Of a DNA stretch of 50,206 nt, positions 38,542-44,812 are shown piece after piece; position 1 is the stretch's first letter, and the number at the start of each line of letters is the position of its first letter. The position numbers and the translations under genes were made by a program. The DNA is from an uncultured Bacteroidales bacterium. GTDB taxonomy: Bacteria > Bacteroidota > Bacteroidia > Bacteroidales > Muribaculaceae. The stretch spans positions 1-50,206 of the forward strand of contig CAMWNG010000008.1 of the NCBI GenBank assembly GCA_947175575.1, given 5' to 3'. Below the pieces are notes generated by a model. That model searched no databases. It was not told the origin of the DNA and saw only the letters and a program-made list of their open reading frames with translations.

Positions 38542-39558
38542 ATGAAAAACCTGCCGAAATATATAGATATCGCCTTCTGTCTGCTGGTGCTGCCGGCCAT
38601 GCTGTTCATGTTTCCGGTGGAGCGCTGGTATCATAATTTCCAAACTTATATGGTGTCAATGGTGGCCTGGCTGTACTGTCTTTATTTTATCAACCGCACC
38701 CTCACTGTGCCTTGCCTTTTCAAGAGCAAAAAGATGCGACTGGCCGGAATAGGCATCATTGTGGCGTCGCTTTTCGTCACATACTGTTTTTCGGCGATAT
38801 CGCTTTTCAATCCCCCGCCACATAAGTTCCACGACGGCTACACGCGCCTGCTGCCTATGGTGAAGCCTTATCAGCAGGCTGTATGGTCGCTCTTCATGAT
38901 CGTCGAGGCTTTCAGCTTCGCTGTGGGGCTTTTCACGCAGACCGAGGTGCAGCGCACGCGCCGGCGCGAAGTGGAAGCGCAACGCGACCGCGCGGAAATC
39001 GACCTGTACCGCGCGCAGATAAAGCCGCACTTCATGTTCAACACGCTCAACTCGCTTTACGGGCTGTTTCTCACCGGCAACGCCAACGCCCTGCCGTCGC
39101 TTGAGAAATTCATCTCCATGATGCGTTACATCCATACCACCGCGTCGCACACCGAATCCGTATCGCTGTCTGAAGAAGCCGACTACATTCAGCAGTACGT
39201 CGAACTACAATCATTGAGGCTCAACGATAAGACGAAAGTGGCGCTCAACATCGACATAGCCGATAAATCGCTGCGTGTGCCACCGATGCTTCTGGTCACC
39301 TTCGTTGAAAACTGCTTCAAACACGGCGTCTCGCCTGTGGAGGAGAGCACGATTACCATCTCTCTCACGGAACGCGACGGAGTGCTTGAATTCCGTACCT
39401 GCAACCGTATGTTTCCCAACCGCCGCGTGGGTGAGCACTTGGGCATCGAAAACTGTCGCAAGCGCCTGAACCTCAGTTATCCGGATTCACACCGGCTCAC
39501 AATTTCAGATGCCGATAGACTTTTCGGTGTGGAACTCATAATAAATCTTACGAAATGA
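38542..39558 (+). CDS. LytS-type sensor histidine kinase
   Basis: This is a 338-residue protein. Four membrane helices lie in residues 8-132, with no extracellular sensor domain of any size. A short coiled linker follows, then the His_kinase (PF06580-type) motif AQIKPHFMFNTLNSLYGL with phospho-acceptor His163. The ATP-binding domain shows PPMLLVTFVENCFKHGV (N-box) and a late GEHLGIENCRKRL (G-box). It passes phosphate to the LytTR regulator encoded next, with which it overlaps by four bases. The ligand is unknown. Confidence 0.94.
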   Translation: MKNLPKYIDIAFCLLVLPAMLFMFPVERWYHNFQTYMVSMVAWLYCLYFINRTLTVPCLFKSKKMRLAGIGIIVASLFVTYCFSAISLFNPPPHKFHDGYTRLLPMVKPYQQAVWSLFMIVEAFSFAVGLFTQTEVQRTRRREVEAQRDRAEIDLYRAQIKPHFMFNTLNSLYGLFLTGNANALPSLEKFISMMRYIHTTASHTESVSLSEEADYIQQYVELQSLRLNDKTKVALNIDIADKSLRVPPMLLVTFVENCFKHGVSPVEESTITISLTERDGVLEFRTCNRMFPNRRVGEHLGIENCRKRLNLSYPDSHRLTISDADRLFGVELIINLTK

Positions 39559-40268
39559 TACATTGTGTGGCCATCGATGACGAGCCCATAGCGCTCTCTA
39601 TCATTAGCGAATATGCCTCGCGCTACGGTAATATGGAGCTAAAGTGCTTCACCTCGCCCGTGGAAGGAATGGACTTCATCCGGGACACTCGACCGGATGT
39701 GGTGTTCCTCGACATCGAGATGAACTCGCACAACGGAATCGAGCTTGCCAGAGAACTGCCTGAAGGAACGACTCTTATATTCACCACTGCATACGCGCGC
39801 TACGCACTCGACGGATTCAATGTCAACGCTGTCGATTTCCTGCACAAGCCCATATTTTATCCGCGTTTCGTTCAGGCTATGGACAAAGCCCGCGCATGGG
39901 TCGATCGCGACCGCCCGGCAGCTTCTCCGGAGTGCATCACGCTCAAATCCGGACACCGGACAGTTGTGGTAGGCCTTGATTCGATAAAACATGTGGAGGC
40001 CATGGACAATTATGTAAAAGTGTACCGCAAGGACCTTCCCATGGTGGTCTCCCAGATCACGATGAAAGAAATGGAATCGATGCTTCCATCTGACAGATTC
40101 GTGCGCGTGCATCGATCGTTCATCGTGTCGCTGAAGGCTGTCGAAAGTTTTTCAAACCGAAAGATACAGATAAGGGGAGTGCAGATGCCCATACCCGTGG
40201 GACGGACATACACTGATTCGGTTCGGGCAGCTTATGAACGCTTCGGATCGGAGAGACGGCCGGATTAA
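39555..40268 (+). CDS. LytTR response regulator
   Basis: This 237-residue protein has a receiver domain (residues 1-120) with acidic pair Asp8-Asp9, acceptor Asp53 in VVFLDIEM and Lys in FLHKPI. Residues 135-235 form a LytTR DNA-binding domain (SIKHVEAMDNYVKVYRKD, FVRVHRSFIVSLKAVESF). It is translationally coupled to the kinase. Its stop codon interlocks with that of the convergent aldo/keto reductase gene through a shared TTAA at 40265-40268, with no terminator between. Confidence 0.95.
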   Translation: MIHCVAIDDEPIALSIISEYASRYGNMELKCFTSPVEGMDFIRDTRPDVVFLDIEMNSHNGIELARELPEGTTLIFTTAYARYALDGFNVNAVDFLHKPIFYPRFVQAMDKARAWVDRDRPAASPECITLKSGHRTVVVGLDSIKHVEAMDNYVKVYRKDLPMVVSQITMKEMESMLPSDRFVRVHRSFIVSLKAVESFSNRKIQIRGVQMPIPVGRTYTDSVRAAYERFGSERRPD

Positions 40269-41665
40269 GCCGGATTTTGCTTAAGCGACTCTACGTAGCG
40301 GTCAATACGGTGTAATTCCTTGGGAATATCGATCGACTGCGGGCAGTGCGGAGAACATTGGTTGCAGCCTATGCAATGGCTGGCCTGACGAAGCCGCGGA
40401 ACAGAGCGGTCGTATCCCACCAGGAAGGCCCGCCGTGCTTCCGCGTAATTGGACGCCTGGGTACCTTCGGCCACATTTCCCTGATTTACACATTTATTGT
40501 AGTGGAGCAGAATGGCCGGAATATCTATGCCGTAAGGACATGGCATACAATATTTACAGTCGTTACAGGCTACGGTGGGATATTGCACCATCAGATCGGC
40601 CGTGTCGTACAGGAACTGCATCTCATCATCGTTGAGTGGGACAAGCGGCGAGTAGGTATGCAGATTATCCTCCAGATGCTCCATGTATGTCATTCCGCTC
40701 AGCACGGTCAGCACTCCGTGATGTGTACCGGCGTAACGGAACGCCCACGATGCCACACTTTTCTCCGGCTCGCGTTGCTTCAGGCGCGCTGCGATATGAT
40801 CGGGCACGTTGGAAAGCCGGCCGCCGAGCAGGGGTTCCATGATTATGGCCGGAATACCGCGTTTTTCAAGTTCGCCGTATAGATACTCCCCGTCTGTATT
40901 CCGGGGATTGAGCTGTTTGGCATGTTTCCAGTCAAGATAGTTCAGCTGTATCTGTACGAAATCCCATTTGTATTTGTCATGGTTTGCCAACGCCCAGTCA
41001 AACACGGCTATCTCTCCGTGATACGAAAAGCCGAGATTGCCGATGCGGCCGGCTTCACGCTCCGCCATCAGAAAGTCAAGCATACCGTTGTCGATATAAC
41101 GTGCGCGAAAATCATCCATTCCGTTTCCGCCACCGATGGAGTGCAGCAACATATAGTCGATGCGATCCGTCTGCAATTCCTTGAAAGATTTGTGATACAT
41201 AGCCATTGATGCCTCGCGGCTCCACGTCTGCGGAGCGAAATTCGATAGTTTGGTGGCTATGTAATACGACTCGCGCGGGTGGCGTGAGAGGGCTATGCCT
41301 GTGGCTCGTTCCGAGAATCCCTTGCAGTAGGCGGGTGAAGTGTCGAAATAGTTGACACCGTGCGCTATGGCCGTATCGACCAGCCGGTTCACCATTTCCT
41401 GATCAATGACATCCTCACCCTCCTTATCTTCGGAGCGGACAGTCGGCCACCGCATGCAGCCATAGCCGAGTATAGACACCTTCTCTCCGGTCTTGGGATT
41501 GATGCGATAGGTCATCGAACCCTCGGCGGAGTCGCCGGAAGCCGCGCTTCGGGCTGCATCGTTTTCTGCTTCAGAACGGCATCCGGTCAGCGCGAGCGCT
41601 GTCAGTCCCGTTCCGAGGCCGAGCCGTTTCATAAAATCGCGACGTGTGATCTTTATCTTTTCCAT
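40265..41665 (-). CDS. Exported iron-sulfur aldo/keto reductase (Tat-lipoprotein-like)
   Basis: The product is 466 residues from ATG at 41665; the longer frame to 41770 runs into the preceding gene. The N-terminus KITRRDFMKRLGLGTGLTALALTGC is a twin-arginine signal with a lipobox-like Cys29. The aldo/keto reductase barrel has the full tetrad by position: Asp108, Tyr113, Lys139 and His175. The C-terminus carries ferredoxin-like cysteines: CNDCKYCMPCPYGIDI and CIGCNQCSPHCPQSIDI. NAD(P)H is not available outside the cytoplasm, so electrons probably come via iron-sulfur proteins. The upstream NapH-NapG-like gene (16-base gap) is the obvious donor. The substrate is unknown. Confidence 0.9.
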   Translation of the reverse strand: MEKIKITRRDFMKRLGLGTGLTALALTGCRSEAENDAARSAASGDSAEGSMTYRINPKTGEKVSILGYGCMRWPTVRSEDKEGEDVIDQEMVNRLVDTAIAHGVNYFDTSPAYCKGFSERATGIALSRHPRESYYIATKLSNFAPQTWSREASMAMYHKSFKELQTDRIDYMLLHSIGGGNGMDDFRARYIDNGMLDFLMAEREAGRIGNLGFSYHGEIAVFDWALANHDKYKWDFVQIQLNYLDWKHAKQLNPRNTDGEYLYGELEKRGIPAIIMEPLLGGRLSNVPDHIAARLKQREPEKSVASWAFRYAGTHHGVLTVLSGMTYMEHLEDNLHTYSPLVPLNDDEMQFLYDTADLMVQYPTVACNDCKYCMPCPYGIDIPAILLHYNKCVNQGNVAEGTQASNYAEARRAFLVGYDRSVPRLRQASHCIGCNQCSPHCPQSIDIPKELHRIDRYVESLKQNPA

Positions 41666-41681
41666 GTTTTCAGGCGGGGGA

Positions 41682-43166
41682 TCAGATGATACGGTGGTTT
41701 TCATGTCCTTCGACATAGATGGCGCTGAATGGCCGCGCCGGGCACAGATTCTCACAGGCTCCACAACCAATGCACCGCTCAGTATTGACTGCCGGAATTT
41801 TCAGTGAGGATTCATCGGCAGGATCAGAAGGCACCATGGTGATGGCGCCGACGGGGCAGTGGCGCGCGCAGTTGCCGCACTCAACACCATCGGCAAGAGG
41901 CACACAGTTGGCCTTTATCCATACAGCGTGACCGATCTGGACTGCTGATTTGTCAGCTACAGAAAGCGGCCTTATGGCTCCTGACGGGCACACCTCGGAG
42001 CATCGTGTGCATTCCGGGCGACAATAGCCGCGCTCGTATGACGATTCCGGCTGCATCAATGTATCTAACGATGCCGACGGACGGAGCACTCCGTTGGGAC
42101 AGACGGCCACACACAACTGACAGGCAGTGCAGTGCCCGGCCATATTCCGGAGACTTACGGCTCCTGGGGGGACTATGCGTGTGCGACGCGCCGGAATTTT
42201 CTTGTCGGCTATCACGGCCAGACCGCCGTCCACTGTCTTTTCGCGCGCTTGAGTGGCGGCGGCCGCACCCAGAGCGGCCAGTGCGGTCATGAAATTGCGC
42301 CGGCCGGAGTCGGGTCGGTTATCAGTCGAGACTTCCACTTTCGACCGCCCGTAGGACGGAGCGTATGAGATGGCATCCTTATGACATTTTCCTATGCAGT
42401 CAAAACAGGTCACACATCGTGAGTAATCAATCGTATGAGCGGCAGAATCAATGCAGGCGGCCTTGCAGTTTCGCGCGCACAGCCCGCAGCTGTTACACTT
42501 TGACTTGTCTATAACCGGACGCAGCACCGAGAAACGGGCGAAGAACCCGAGTACAGTCCCGACCGGACACACTGTATTGCAATAGGTCCGTCCGTTTCGC
42601 CACGCCAGTATGGCCAGCAGAATCAGGGTCCCCACCGCCACAGCGAGCGTGGCCGACCCGCGCAGCCATATATCGACAGAATAGAACGCGTAGCTTTCAT
42701 GCGATGCAGCCACCGATGCCAGAAGATTATTCACCCATGCCCATACCGGAGCGATAAGACTCTGTGCGATGCGCCCGTAAGCGCTGTACGGTGCCAAAAG
42801 TGCTACGACAGCACCGATTCCGGCCACGATGGCGATCACCATTACCGCCAGCATTGCGTAACGCAGAGCGTTCTTAGCTTTCGAGTAGGAATAACGGTTT
42901 TTACGGGCCAGTTTCCCGAGTCGTCCGAATCCGTCCTGCATTATACCGAGCGGACAAATCACCGAACAGTAAAGGCGTCCGAAAACCAGAGTCAGAATTA
43001 TCAGTGCCGCGATGACCGCCAGGTTTAGAGCAAGCACAGCCGGCAGAAACTGTATTTTGGCCATCCAGCCGAACCATCGCTGCGCCGTGCCTGAAAAATC
43101 CACGAATAACAGCGTCACCATGACTATTGCGGCCACAGCCAATATTTGTCTTATTCTTTTGAGCAT
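41682..43166 (-). CDS. NapH-NapG-like fusion, membrane iron-sulfur electron carrier
   Basis: The 494-residue protein reads as two joined parts. Residues 1-275 resemble NapH: several membrane helices, RLYCSVICPLG (Cys67, Cys71), TYCNTVCPVG (Cys196, Cys200), and two 4Fe-4S sites (Cys224/227/230/234 and 251/254/257/261). A twin-arginine-like stretch GRRNFMTALAALGAAAA follows at 288-304. Then comes a NapG-like ferredoxin with four cysteine clusters (346-356, 382-393, around 421-437, and 465-475). NapG/NapH pass electrons from quinol towards periplasmic reductases. No Nap or nitrate enzyme is nearby; the co-transcribed exported aldo/keto reductase is the likely acceptor. Confidence 0.85.
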   Translation of the reverse strand: MLKRIRQILAVAAIVMVTLLFVDFSGTAQRWFGWMAKIQFLPAVLALNLAVIAALIILTLVFGRLYCSVICPLGIMQDGFGRLGKLARKNRYSYSKAKNALRYAMLAVMVIAIVAGIGAVVALLAPYSAYGRIAQSLIAPVWAWVNNLLASVAASHESYAFYSVDIWLRGSATLAVAVGTLILLAILAWRNGRTYCNTVCPVGTVLGFFARFSVLRPVIDKSKCNSCGLCARNCKAACIDSAAHTIDYSRCVTCFDCIGKCHKDAISYAPSYGRSKVEVSTDNRPDSGRRNFMTALAALGAAAATQAREKTVDGGLAVIADKKIPARRTRIVPPGAVSLRNMAGHCTACQLCVAVCPNGVLRPSASLDTLMQPESSYERGYCRPECTRCSEVCPSGAIRPLSVADKSAVQIGHAVWIKANCVPLADGVECGNCARHCPVGAITMVPSDPADESSLKIPAVNTERCIGCGACENLCPARPFSAIYVEGHENHRII

Positions 43167-43209
43167 ACGAAACGAAATGTGATATCTGCGCCGAAAATTT
43201 CCGACAAGG

Positions 43210-43240
43210 CAAAATTAAACAAAAAAATCCGATATAGCAA
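43210..43240 (-). promoter_or_regulatory. Promoter of the NapH-NapG-like/reductase operon
   Basis: On the minus strand, TTG (43240-43238), 20 bp, TAATTTTG (43217-43210). The ATG is at 43166. Confidence 0.75.
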
Positions 43241-43375
43241 CAGATGTGCTGACATCCGCTTTTCACCGCTTAAAATCCCCTCGTTGTCACACATATTTGC
43301 GAGTGAGTGAACATGTCGGGCAATTTGGGAATTATATAATTATGTATAATTCGAATTCTGATAATTTCTGATAAT

Positions 43376-44812
43376 ATGGAAAAACAAACTATATATTCAC
43401 GGTTCAAGAAAATCGTTGAACTTCAGCCTGAATCACCGGCTATAATAGAGGAGGACCGCACCTTGTCGTACAAGGAGTTGGACGAGATGGCAGATGCCAT
43501 TCTCTCCAAATTCTATGATCGCTCGCCCCGTATGGTCGGTATTGTCATGCACCACGGAGCCGAACAGATCGCAGCAATGCTCGCCGTGTTGAAAAGCGGG
43601 GCCGCATACATACCCGCAGAGCCGACTTTACCTCAGGAGCGCATCGATTACATGATGAGCACGGCAGGAGCCGAACTTATAATAAAAGACAGCTTTTGCA
43701 GGCATCTTTCACCGGCACGGAAAGAGATGGTAGACCGTTCTACTGCAGACGGAGTGGCGTATGTCCTTTATACCTCAGGCACATCGGGAAAACCTAAGGG
43801 CGTGGTTGTTGAGAATCATTCAGTGGTTAATTACGCTGAAGCCTTCGAAGCCGAATTCGGGACGGGAGCCGGCGACATAATGCTGCAATATTCGGTTTGT
43901 TCATTCGATATCTTCGTGGAGGAAGTGTACACCACACTGCTCAATGGCGCAGCGCTTTGCATTCCGTCGCAGGCGGTGCATAACGGCTCTCTTGATGGAT
44001 TGTTGAAATTCGTCGAAAGACATGGTGTCACCATCATAGACGGCTTTCCATACCTTATTGCGGAAATGAACAAGCTGCCCGATATTCCCCGATCAATAAA
44101 ATTGATTATAAGCGGAGGAGATGTAATACGTGGAAGTTACATCACCAATCTGCGCGACAAAGGCATTAAAATCTACAATACCTACGGTCCGTCGGAGACA
44201 ACCGTCTGCTCGAATTATTTCCGGGTGGATGACGCCGAGCCACTGGCCGATGGCACTTTCCCGGTAGGAAAGGCCGTGAAAGGTGTATCTGTCAAAATAA
44301 TGGACAAGAATCTCAAGGAAGTGCCCAAAGGCGAAATCGGAGAAATATGTATATTCGGCGAGGGGGTCAGCCGCGGCTATCTCGGCAACCCGCCTGAACA
44401 GGCCAATTTCGTGACACTGCCCGACGGGACACGTATGTATCGGAGCGGCGACCTCGGATATGAACTTCCAGACGGCAATCTGGCGTTTCTGCACCGTCGC
44501 GACGACCAGGTGATGATTCTCGGAAAACGCGTCGAACCGGAGGAGGTGGAAAACGTGCTCAACACATGTCCGTCCGCCGAGCGTGGTGTCGTACGGGCTT
44601 TCAAGGACGACAACGGCCTTCATTACCTCATAGCCTATCTTATTCCCAAAGAAGGTTGCCGCCTCCACGACGTGAAGGCATGGCTTCAGGCCAGACTCAC
44701 GGATTTCATGATTCCGGAATTCTTCGTTAAAGTCAATCATATTCCGTTGACACGCAGAGGGAAAGTGGATGTGGATGCTCTTCCGGTAGTGATGAAAGAA
44801 GGTGGTGTATAA
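43376..44812 (+). CDS. Free-standing NRPS-type adenylation domain
   Basis: This is a 478-residue ANL enzyme with NRPS-type core motifs: A3 VLYTSGTSGKPKGV, A4 SFDIFVEEVYTTLLNGA, A5 NTYGPSETTVCS, A7 MYRSGDLG, A8 RRDDQVMILGKRVEPEEVE, and A10 RRGKVD. It ends just after A10, so carrier and condensation domains are missing. The Asp that binds the α-amino group is present (SFD), so the substrate is probably an amino acid. Pocket residues aligned by eye to GrsA read D-I-E-D-I-S-T-V-C-K; the two acids would suit a basic side chain, but this is tentative. A GNAT gene starts 5 bases later. The upstream region is AT-rich; no clear promoter was found. Confidence 0.88.
   Translation: MEKQTIYSRFKKIVELQPESPAIIEEDRTLSYKELDEMADAILSKFYDRSPRMVGIVMHHGAEQIAAMLAVLKSGAAYIPAEPTLPQERIDYMMSTAGAELIIKDSFCRHLSPARKEMVDRSTADGVAYVLYTSGTSGKPKGVVVENHSVVNYAEAFEAEFGTGAGDIMLQYSVCSFDIFVEEVYTTLLNGAALCIPSQAVHNGSLDGLLKFVERHGVTIIDGFPYLIAEMNKLPDIPRSIKLIISGGDVIRGSYITNLRDKGIKIYNTYGPSETTVCSNYFRVDDAEPLADGTFPVGKAVKGVSVKIMDKNLKEVPKGEIGEICIFGEGVSRGYLGNPPEQANFVTLPDGTRMYRSGDLGYELPDGNLAFLHRRDDQVMILGKRVEPEEVENVLNTCPSAERGVVRAFKDDNGLHYLIAYLIPKEGCRLHDVKAWLQARLTDFMIPEFFVKVNHIPLTRRGKVDVDALPVVMKEGGV

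Follow-up and report, generated by a model that had tools for sequence, protein, structure and literature searches.

Two adjacent genes in many Bacteroidales appear to wire an exported aldo/keto reductase to an inner-membrane electron supply

Described relatives and the gene pair

A fusion of a NapH-like membrane protein with a NapG-like ferredoxin was described and tested by Tooke et al. (2017, PMC5449189), namely Q1NSB0, the polytopic polyferredoxin (PFD) of the delta proteobacterium MLMS-1. In the parts of that article considered here, PFD has seven predicted clusters, three inside and four outside, with a twin arginine before its fifth transmembrane segment (TM5), and export of its outer half, followed with MBP and AmiA reporters in E. 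coli, required both the twin-arginine translocation (Tat) system and the twin arginine. Its discussion presents NapGH as a quinol dehydrogenase that feeds outward to a periplasmic reductase, and MsrPQ as a pair in which a membrane partner feeds a Tat-exported enzyme from the respiratory chain. Here, we analyzed a stretch of 50,206 nucleotides (the window) from an uncultured Bacteroidales bacterium of the Muribaculaceae (GCA_947175575.1, contig CAMWNG010000008.1), in which such a fusion is followed by the gene of an iron-sulfur (Fe-S) aldo/keto reductase (AKR) bearing a Tat signal. Two adjacent genes of this kind occur in many Bacteroidales and appear to wire an exported enzyme of the AKR family to an inner-membrane electron supply. 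The reading that we prefer, with a rough probability of 0.62, is a two-protein inner-membrane electron-transfer system in which electrons would flow outward to the AKR and a carbonyl-type substrate would be reduced. Domains, motifs, conservation, gene linkage and the presence of Tat genes were all observed at the sequence level, as follows:

41682..43166, minus strand: NapH-NapG fusion (polytopic polyferredoxin), 494 aa; open reading frame (ORF) list, Pfam, NCBIfam and alignment
41666..41681, minus strand: intergenic gap of 16 nt, compatible with a single transcript
40265..41665, minus strand: Fe-S AKR with Tat signal, 466 aa; Pfam, NCBIfam and alignment

Both ORFs lie where the preliminary description had placed a NapH-NapG-like fusion and an exported Fe-S AKR (40265..43166), and the domain models agree with these names. 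On the minus strand the fusion comes first and the AKR starts 16 nt past its stop; the AKR start is the ATG at 41665, and a longer ORF of 501 aa is a TTG extension of the same frame. The likeness to PFD, taken from its published description, is one of overall plan and consists of the NapH-NapG order, the twin arginine before a weak TM5, clusters on both sides and positive charge after TM5, whereas the window's fusion differs from that description in being paired with an AKR that bears a Tat signal. The earlier statement that no system of this form was described thus has to be given up for the fusion in view of PFD. With NapGH of nitrate respiration the fusion shares its domain content, and NapH and NapG models match its two halves, but it is a single polypeptide, scores far below the equivalog cut-offs and has an AKR as its partner. 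MsrPQ likewise combines a membrane partner in the respiratory chain with a Tat-exported enzyme, but uses heme and a molybdenum cofactor instead of Fe-S clusters and an AKR. Neither the pairing of the fusion with an exported Fe-S AKR nor the AKR/DUF362 exchange reported below was found in the titles and abstracts of the leading matches of an open-access literature search; thus, the fusion is already known, and its pairing with an exported AKR seems undescribed.

Signals, clusters and active site

The fusion divides into four parts:

42603..43145, minus strand: NapH-like membrane part with four hydrophobic segments (residues 8-26, 44-62, 106-124 and 170-188); Kyte-Doolittle scan, loop charges and alignment
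42384..42497, minus strand: two ferredoxin cysteine sets, C224-C261, presumably cytoplasmic; Pfam, alignment, conservation and loop charges
42240..42308, minus strand: internal twin-arginine motif and weak fifth hydrophobic segment (residues 287-309), a putative Sec-to-Tat handover point; TIGR01409 and Kyte-Doolittle scan
41742..42131, minus strand: NapG-like four-cluster ferredoxin, C346-C475, presumably periplasmic; Pfam, NCBIfam, alignment and conservation

Pfam found Fer4_5 and several Fer4 models, with Fer4 domains along the whole chain. The NapH models of NCBIfam match the N-terminal half and the NapG/MauM models the C-terminal half, every score being under its cut-off, and the fusion fails at the equivalog level for both NapH (71.5 bits against a cut-off of 234) and NapG (63.4 against 269). 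Its topology was read from a simple Kyte-Doolittle scan and loop charges, with no topology predictor: segments 1-4 reach 2.2-3.0, the segment after the internal arginine pair reaches 0.52 and is followed by positive charge, and weaker peaks (0.45-1.34), in several cases located in cysteine-rich stretches, were not counted as membrane-spanning. The N-terminus, the loop at residues 64-100 and the first ferredoxin part would then face inside.

The mid-chain GRRNFM (R289, R290) pointed out in the preliminary description is present and itself matches TIGR01409 at 17.3 bits, above the cut-off of 16.7. Conservation was assessed mainly in named genomes, for which the best 80 of 427 loci were taken, so this set leans towards the fusions nearest to that of the window. 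Among these 80 and the window, the internal motif is RRx[FILMV] in 71/81, KR in 9/81 and RRxA in 1/81; among 55 more distant fusions of the DUF362 type (see below) it is RR in 36, KR in 16 and another form of RR in 3, so that all 136 fusions carry RR or KR at this site. In the 72 of the 81 fusions with aligned RR, the fifth segment has a mean Kyte-Doolittle value of 0.87 against 2.28 for the first. The CxxxCP motif C67/C71 and a second one just downstream of the membrane part (C196/C200) are conserved. Altogether, 28 of the 29 checked cysteines are invariant across 136/136 fusions, which places these signatures beyond chance; they include each of the 16 cysteines of the four C-terminal [4Fe-4S] sets, and the remaining one, C238, is kept in 80/81 and 52/55. 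A smaller fusion alignment comprised 19 of 20 loci, L035 being left out for a stop within the fusion frame; the rows of L037 and L040 are incomplete and that of L027 contains an X.

The AKR shows the following features:

41579..41665, minus strand: Tat signal with lipobox (R8 R9 ... C29); TIGR01409, 24.5 bits, cut-off 16.7
40616..41479, minus strand: AKR barrel with tetrad D108, Y113, K139, H175 and dinucleotide-site residues S214, Q238, G324, N334; Pfam and alignment
40538..40567, minus strand: first C-terminal Fe-S set, C367, C370, C373, C376; Pfam and alignment
40343..40375, minus strand: second C-terminal Fe-S set, C431, C434, C437, C441; Pfam and alignment

A complete tetrad, a Tat/lipobox signal and two ferredoxin cysteine sets had been attributed to this protein before, and all of them were recovered. 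With a 486-aa stretch of the AKR frame as the query, Pfam gave Aldo_ket_red at 5.8e-32 and, in the C-terminal region, Fer4_9 and Fer4_17 barely above cut-off. R8, R9, F11 and C29 are invariant across 20 aligned orthologues (20 loci out of 29 matches). Over the window and 76 named relatives the tetrad is complete in 77/77, as are C367, C370, C373, C376, C431 and C434, and C392, C437 and C441 are each kept in 76/77. The strict signal pattern gave RR in 70/76 and a lipobox in 59/76, and a permissive one ([RK]R, then Cys) fits 77/77. Both the fusion and the AKR thus carry Tat-type signals. A surface-lipoprotein export signal was considered and rejected for now, as none of the 59 strict-pattern AKRs (of 76) has three or more D/E in the five residues after the cysteine.

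Residues equated by motif with the dinucleotide site are also retained (S214, G324 and N334 in 77/77, Q238 in 73/77), and M276 occupies, in 77/77 and by the same kind of equivalence, the position where a nicotinamide-stacking aromatic residue is usual. Fe-S AKRs as such are known by annotation. Eight distant ones were fetched, of which seven look signal-less and one (L186) has an RR start; none lies on a contig with a listed fusion. All eight share with the window's AKR the tetrad, the dinucleotide-site residues (the SxH, MEP and GM...N motifs) and eight cysteines; C392 is missing in at least five of them, and Q replaces H330 in seven. Since distant, mostly signal-less Fe-S AKRs keep the same residues, we see no sign that the signal-bearing AKR has lost its dinucleotide site, and the earlier claim that it would work without NAD(P)H is not established. 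The closest solved sequences are L-galactose dehydrogenases (7smi, 8scc, 7ezi), which share the AKR barrel; their chains have 324-362 aa, and the match is remote and confined to the barrel.

By eye, TAATTTTG lies at window positions 43210-43217 on the minus strand, about 44 nt 5' of the fusion start, and matches TAnnTTTG, which we take to be the Bacteroidetes -7 promoter motif. A sigma-70-type scan of 39500-43600 gave 9 promoter-like sites against 3.9 in shuffled sequences and 2 terminator-like sites against 3.8; it was not used, because the model was not made for Bacteroidota.

Linkage, Tat genes and exchange of the partner

In 75 of the best 80 named loci the fusion is followed on its strand by an AKR at a distance of up to 400 nt, and in L078 the AKR lies directly upstream, giving adjacency in 76. 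In a sample of 41 relatives' genomes, the window's own included, the AKR was found in 26 and the fusion in 32 (E 1e-20), and among 295 genomes of the order Bacteroidales the AKR was found in 57 (E 1e-40) and the fusion in 135 (E 1e-60). The 53 top AKR matches in the order (at least 666 bits) include 46 within 200 nt downstream of a fusion and one directly upstream (L179), so that 47/53 are directly beside it. In L177 and L178 the two genes are less than 3 kb apart with other genes between, and four matches, two of them extra copies from genomes that also have a linked pair, lack a listed fusion on their contigs. The two matches that rank next, at 451 and 420 bits (L180, L169), adjoin a fusion or lie close to one; 13 matches below 300 bits, at least one of them a fragment, have no listed fusion on their contigs, as compared with 61 fusion places by script and with the remaining fusion list by eye. 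A phylum-wide AKR profile search (E 1e-60) found a match in just 1 of 296 genomes, that of the window. The 21 listed genomes of that sample include only two others from the window's order, and the order-wide search was used instead.

The distant fusions have a different partner. The order list has 88 fusion places at 418-585 bits (counted by eye), and at two of these (G349:C26, which is L169, and G499:C48, which is L180) an Fe-S AKR is found next to the fusion or close by. We read 55 of the other 86 (L162-L168, L170-L176, L181, L200-L239) and found a DUF362 protein in 54 and an AKR (150 bits) in none; in the exception, L231, the fusion start coincides with the contig end. The DUF362 partner, assigned by Pfam on three members and by a profile on the others, has about 310 aa and a Tat signal, with RR or KR among the first 40 residues in 52/54. 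Its gene shares the strand of the fusion in 54/54 and lies upstream with gaps of up to 151 nt in 52, the ORF calls overlapping in the other two. A FastTree tree was built from 74 fusions, namely those of every second locus together with the window's, the exceptions and L169 and L180; on it the partner label changes 5 times, against 26.7 when shuffled; therefore, partner type follows fusion lineage. Because close fusions carry the AKR and distant ones mostly a DUF362 protein with a Tat signal, the fusion seems to be a donor module that can be combined with different exported enzymes. The partnership proposed earlier thus holds for the fusions nearest to that of the window and for the top AKR matches, but not for the distant fusions: the pairing is one-sided, the AKR being seldom away from the fusion and the distant fusions being mostly without the AKR.

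Tat genes, which the preliminary description had left to be checked, are present. TatC (8.2e-59) and TatA (2.1e-13) adjoin each other on another contig of the window's genome, and TatC was found in 38 of the 41 relatives' genomes. Searched with TIGR01409 (E up to 10), the window's genome gave four matches, of which three are above cut-off: the AKR, the internal motif of the fusion and a third protein. This third protein is dipeptide epimerase-like by eye. In the fetched flanks, TatC itself occurs at 27 of the best 80 named loci, 3 of the 55 DUF362-type loci and none of 12 loci where the AKR lies apart from any listed fusion; simple arithmetic, uncorrected for relatedness, gives a chance expectation of about 0.4 in 80 loci for a single-copy gene.

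Flanks extended up to 6 kb and were often shorter, so all neighbour counts are lower bounds. Besides TatC, the best 80 named loci have DUF1893 (29), an ECF-S-like protein (23), a TonB receptor (10), flavodoxin (7) and an FMN-reductase-like protein (4, one of them in L050 and without a Tat signal); 47 loci have at least one of TatC, DUF1893 and ECF-S-like, the tallied neighbours all share the strand of the pair, and 28 of the 77 named loci with both fusion and AKR carry no tallied neighbour. The 55 DUF362-type loci have an ECF-S-like protein (two profiles) in 21, a phosphoribosyltransferase in 6 and a TonB receptor in 7, and the 12 loci with an AKR apart from any listed fusion have ECF-S-like and DUF1893 once each. 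The ECF-S label is below its cut-off (best 28.4 bits against 30.7). Beside the window's pair none of the tallied neighbour types was seen by eye, and a DUF1893 search of the window's genome found none, with a positive Thermotoga maritima control.

The small ECF-S-like membrane protein (about 170 aa) is found repeatedly next to fusions of both the AKR type and the DUF362 type, and in L193 next to a signal-less Fe-S AKR. DUF1893 (TM1506), at L075:8817-9359 and in 28 other named loci, almost always comes after the AKR and shares its strand; the term DUF1893 was not found in an open-access literature search. A second, signal-less Fe-S AKR-like protein runs in the same direction in L044, L047, L050, L070 and L101 of the best 80 named loci; in that of L050, aligned to P0001, the Tyr and Lys of the tetrad seem to have been lost. 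A search of the window's genome for such a second partner (E 1e-10, without a positive control) gave no match. Examples are:

L194:1560-2072, L048:4509-5030, L164:10476-10985: ECF-S-like membrane protein
L050:4304-5452, L044:8916-10064, L101:3653-4801: second AKR-like protein

At L194:7002-7625 and L195:7017-7640, the gene just upstream of the fusion, on its strand, encodes a flavodoxin with what looks by eye like a Sec signal, and a separate NapH-like protein (open frame of 287 aa) is encoded elsewhere in the window's genome (G000:C11:38991-39635).

Direction of electron flow and what it would mean

From these observations we infer localisation, cluster occupancy, the electron path, its outward direction and the substrate class. 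Sec would first insert the fusion with four transmembrane helices, its N-terminus inside and its first clusters in the cytoplasm; the weak fifth segment would then be passed to Tat, which would carry the NapG-like domain with its four clusters, already folded, across the membrane. The Fe-S AKR would fold with its clusters in the cytoplasm, be exported by Tat and be lipid-anchored at the membrane. Electrons may come from menaquinol or from a low-potential cytoplasmic donor that reaches the cytoplasmic clusters, and would pass over the fusion clusters and the two [4Fe-4S] clusters of the AKR to the active site, where the carbonyl-type substrate would be reduced. Because Fe-S clusters transfer electrons one at a time and the AKR reaction moves a hydride, a bound NAD(P) or flavin is probably required between them. 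A fuller version, which we offer only tentatively, is AKR chemistry outside the cytoplasm that draws on the quinone pool or ferredoxin through seven predicted clusters of the fusion and two of the AKR, without free nicotinamide, as one head of a modular wire exchanged between Bacteroidales lineages (AKR or DUF362).

Several points weigh against outward flow to an exported AKR. Menaquinol (about -75 mV) can reduce ordinary carbonyls (about -200 mV) only poorly; for electrons to flow outward, the donor would therefore have to be stronger or the substrate easier to reduce. KR replaces the strict twin arginine in 9/81 and 16/55 fusions, which means that the strict form is not universal, and the lipobox cysteine is absent in at least two fusion-linked AKRs (L194, L195). 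The flanks of L079, L081 and L107 hold no AKR, in L050 only the signal-less Fe-S AKR-like protein follows the fusion, and the NAD(P)-site residues are retained. Co-divergence was dropped as evidence, since over 25 loci the identity correlation of fusion and AKR (r 0.78) barely exceeds those of TatC with either (0.65, 0.72). The same architecture might run in reverse, with the AKR oxidising a periplasmic alcohol, lactol or sugar and the fusion delivering electrons to menaquinone as a respiratory dehydrogenase; thermodynamics favours this for ordinary carbonyl/alcohol pairs, unless ferredoxin feeds the cytoplasmic clusters, and the nearest solved relatives are L-galactose dehydrogenases. However, that relation is distant and concerns the general fold only, and NapGH is known as a quinol dehydrogenase for a periplasmic reductase (PMC5449189). 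We regard reverse flow as rather unlikely and favour outward flow, because the module resembles NapGH and is shared by two different Tat-signal heads.

How the hydride step is served bears on a further alternative, in which the AKR is exported with tightly bound NAD(P) and its Fe-S clusters reload this cofactor. Tat exports folded, cofactor-loaded proteins, glucose-fructose oxidoreductase is what we take to be a precedent for export with tightly bound NAD(P), and the dinucleotide-site residues persist as counted above, all four also in the eight distant Fe-S AKRs. However, Met stands at the usual aromatic position in 77/77, and a flavin-free path from a [4Fe-4S] cluster to NAD(P) is not known to us, which leaves this possibility doubtful. 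The module could also serve cofactor assembly or salvage instead of catabolism, the AKR acting on an imported cofactor precursor. The same-strand neighbours of the named loci point that way (ECF-S-like 23/80, DUF1893 29/80, TonB 10/80), as do ECF-S-like (21/55), TonB (7/55) and phosphoribosyltransferase (6/55) genes at DUF362-type loci, but the 28 bare pair loci, the sub-threshold ECF-S label, the lack of such neighbours by eye at the window's pair, the missing DUF1893 in its genome and the commonness of TonB receptors in Bacteroidota speak against it, and we think it improbable. Finally, the signals may not work at all, and an ordinary cytoplasmic NADPH-dependent AKR may sit beside an unrelated ferredoxin. 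Signal-less Fe-S AKRs do occur in the order, and one AKR-like protein of this kind follows the fusion in L050; nevertheless, [RK]R followed by Cys in 77/77 AKRs (a permissive count), the TatC linkage and the conserved adjacency make this very hard to believe.

If outward flow to an exported AKR is correct, the AKR superfamily, known as soluble NAD(P)H enzymes, would join the Tat-exported, membrane-wired oxidoreductases; a module found in 135 of the 295 sampled genomes of the order would gain a role; and DUF362, a domain of unknown function, would be tied to the same wire. The pair accounts for two of the three above-cut-off Tat-signal matches in the window's genome (91.8% complete), and it therefore bears on why these bacteria keep Tat.

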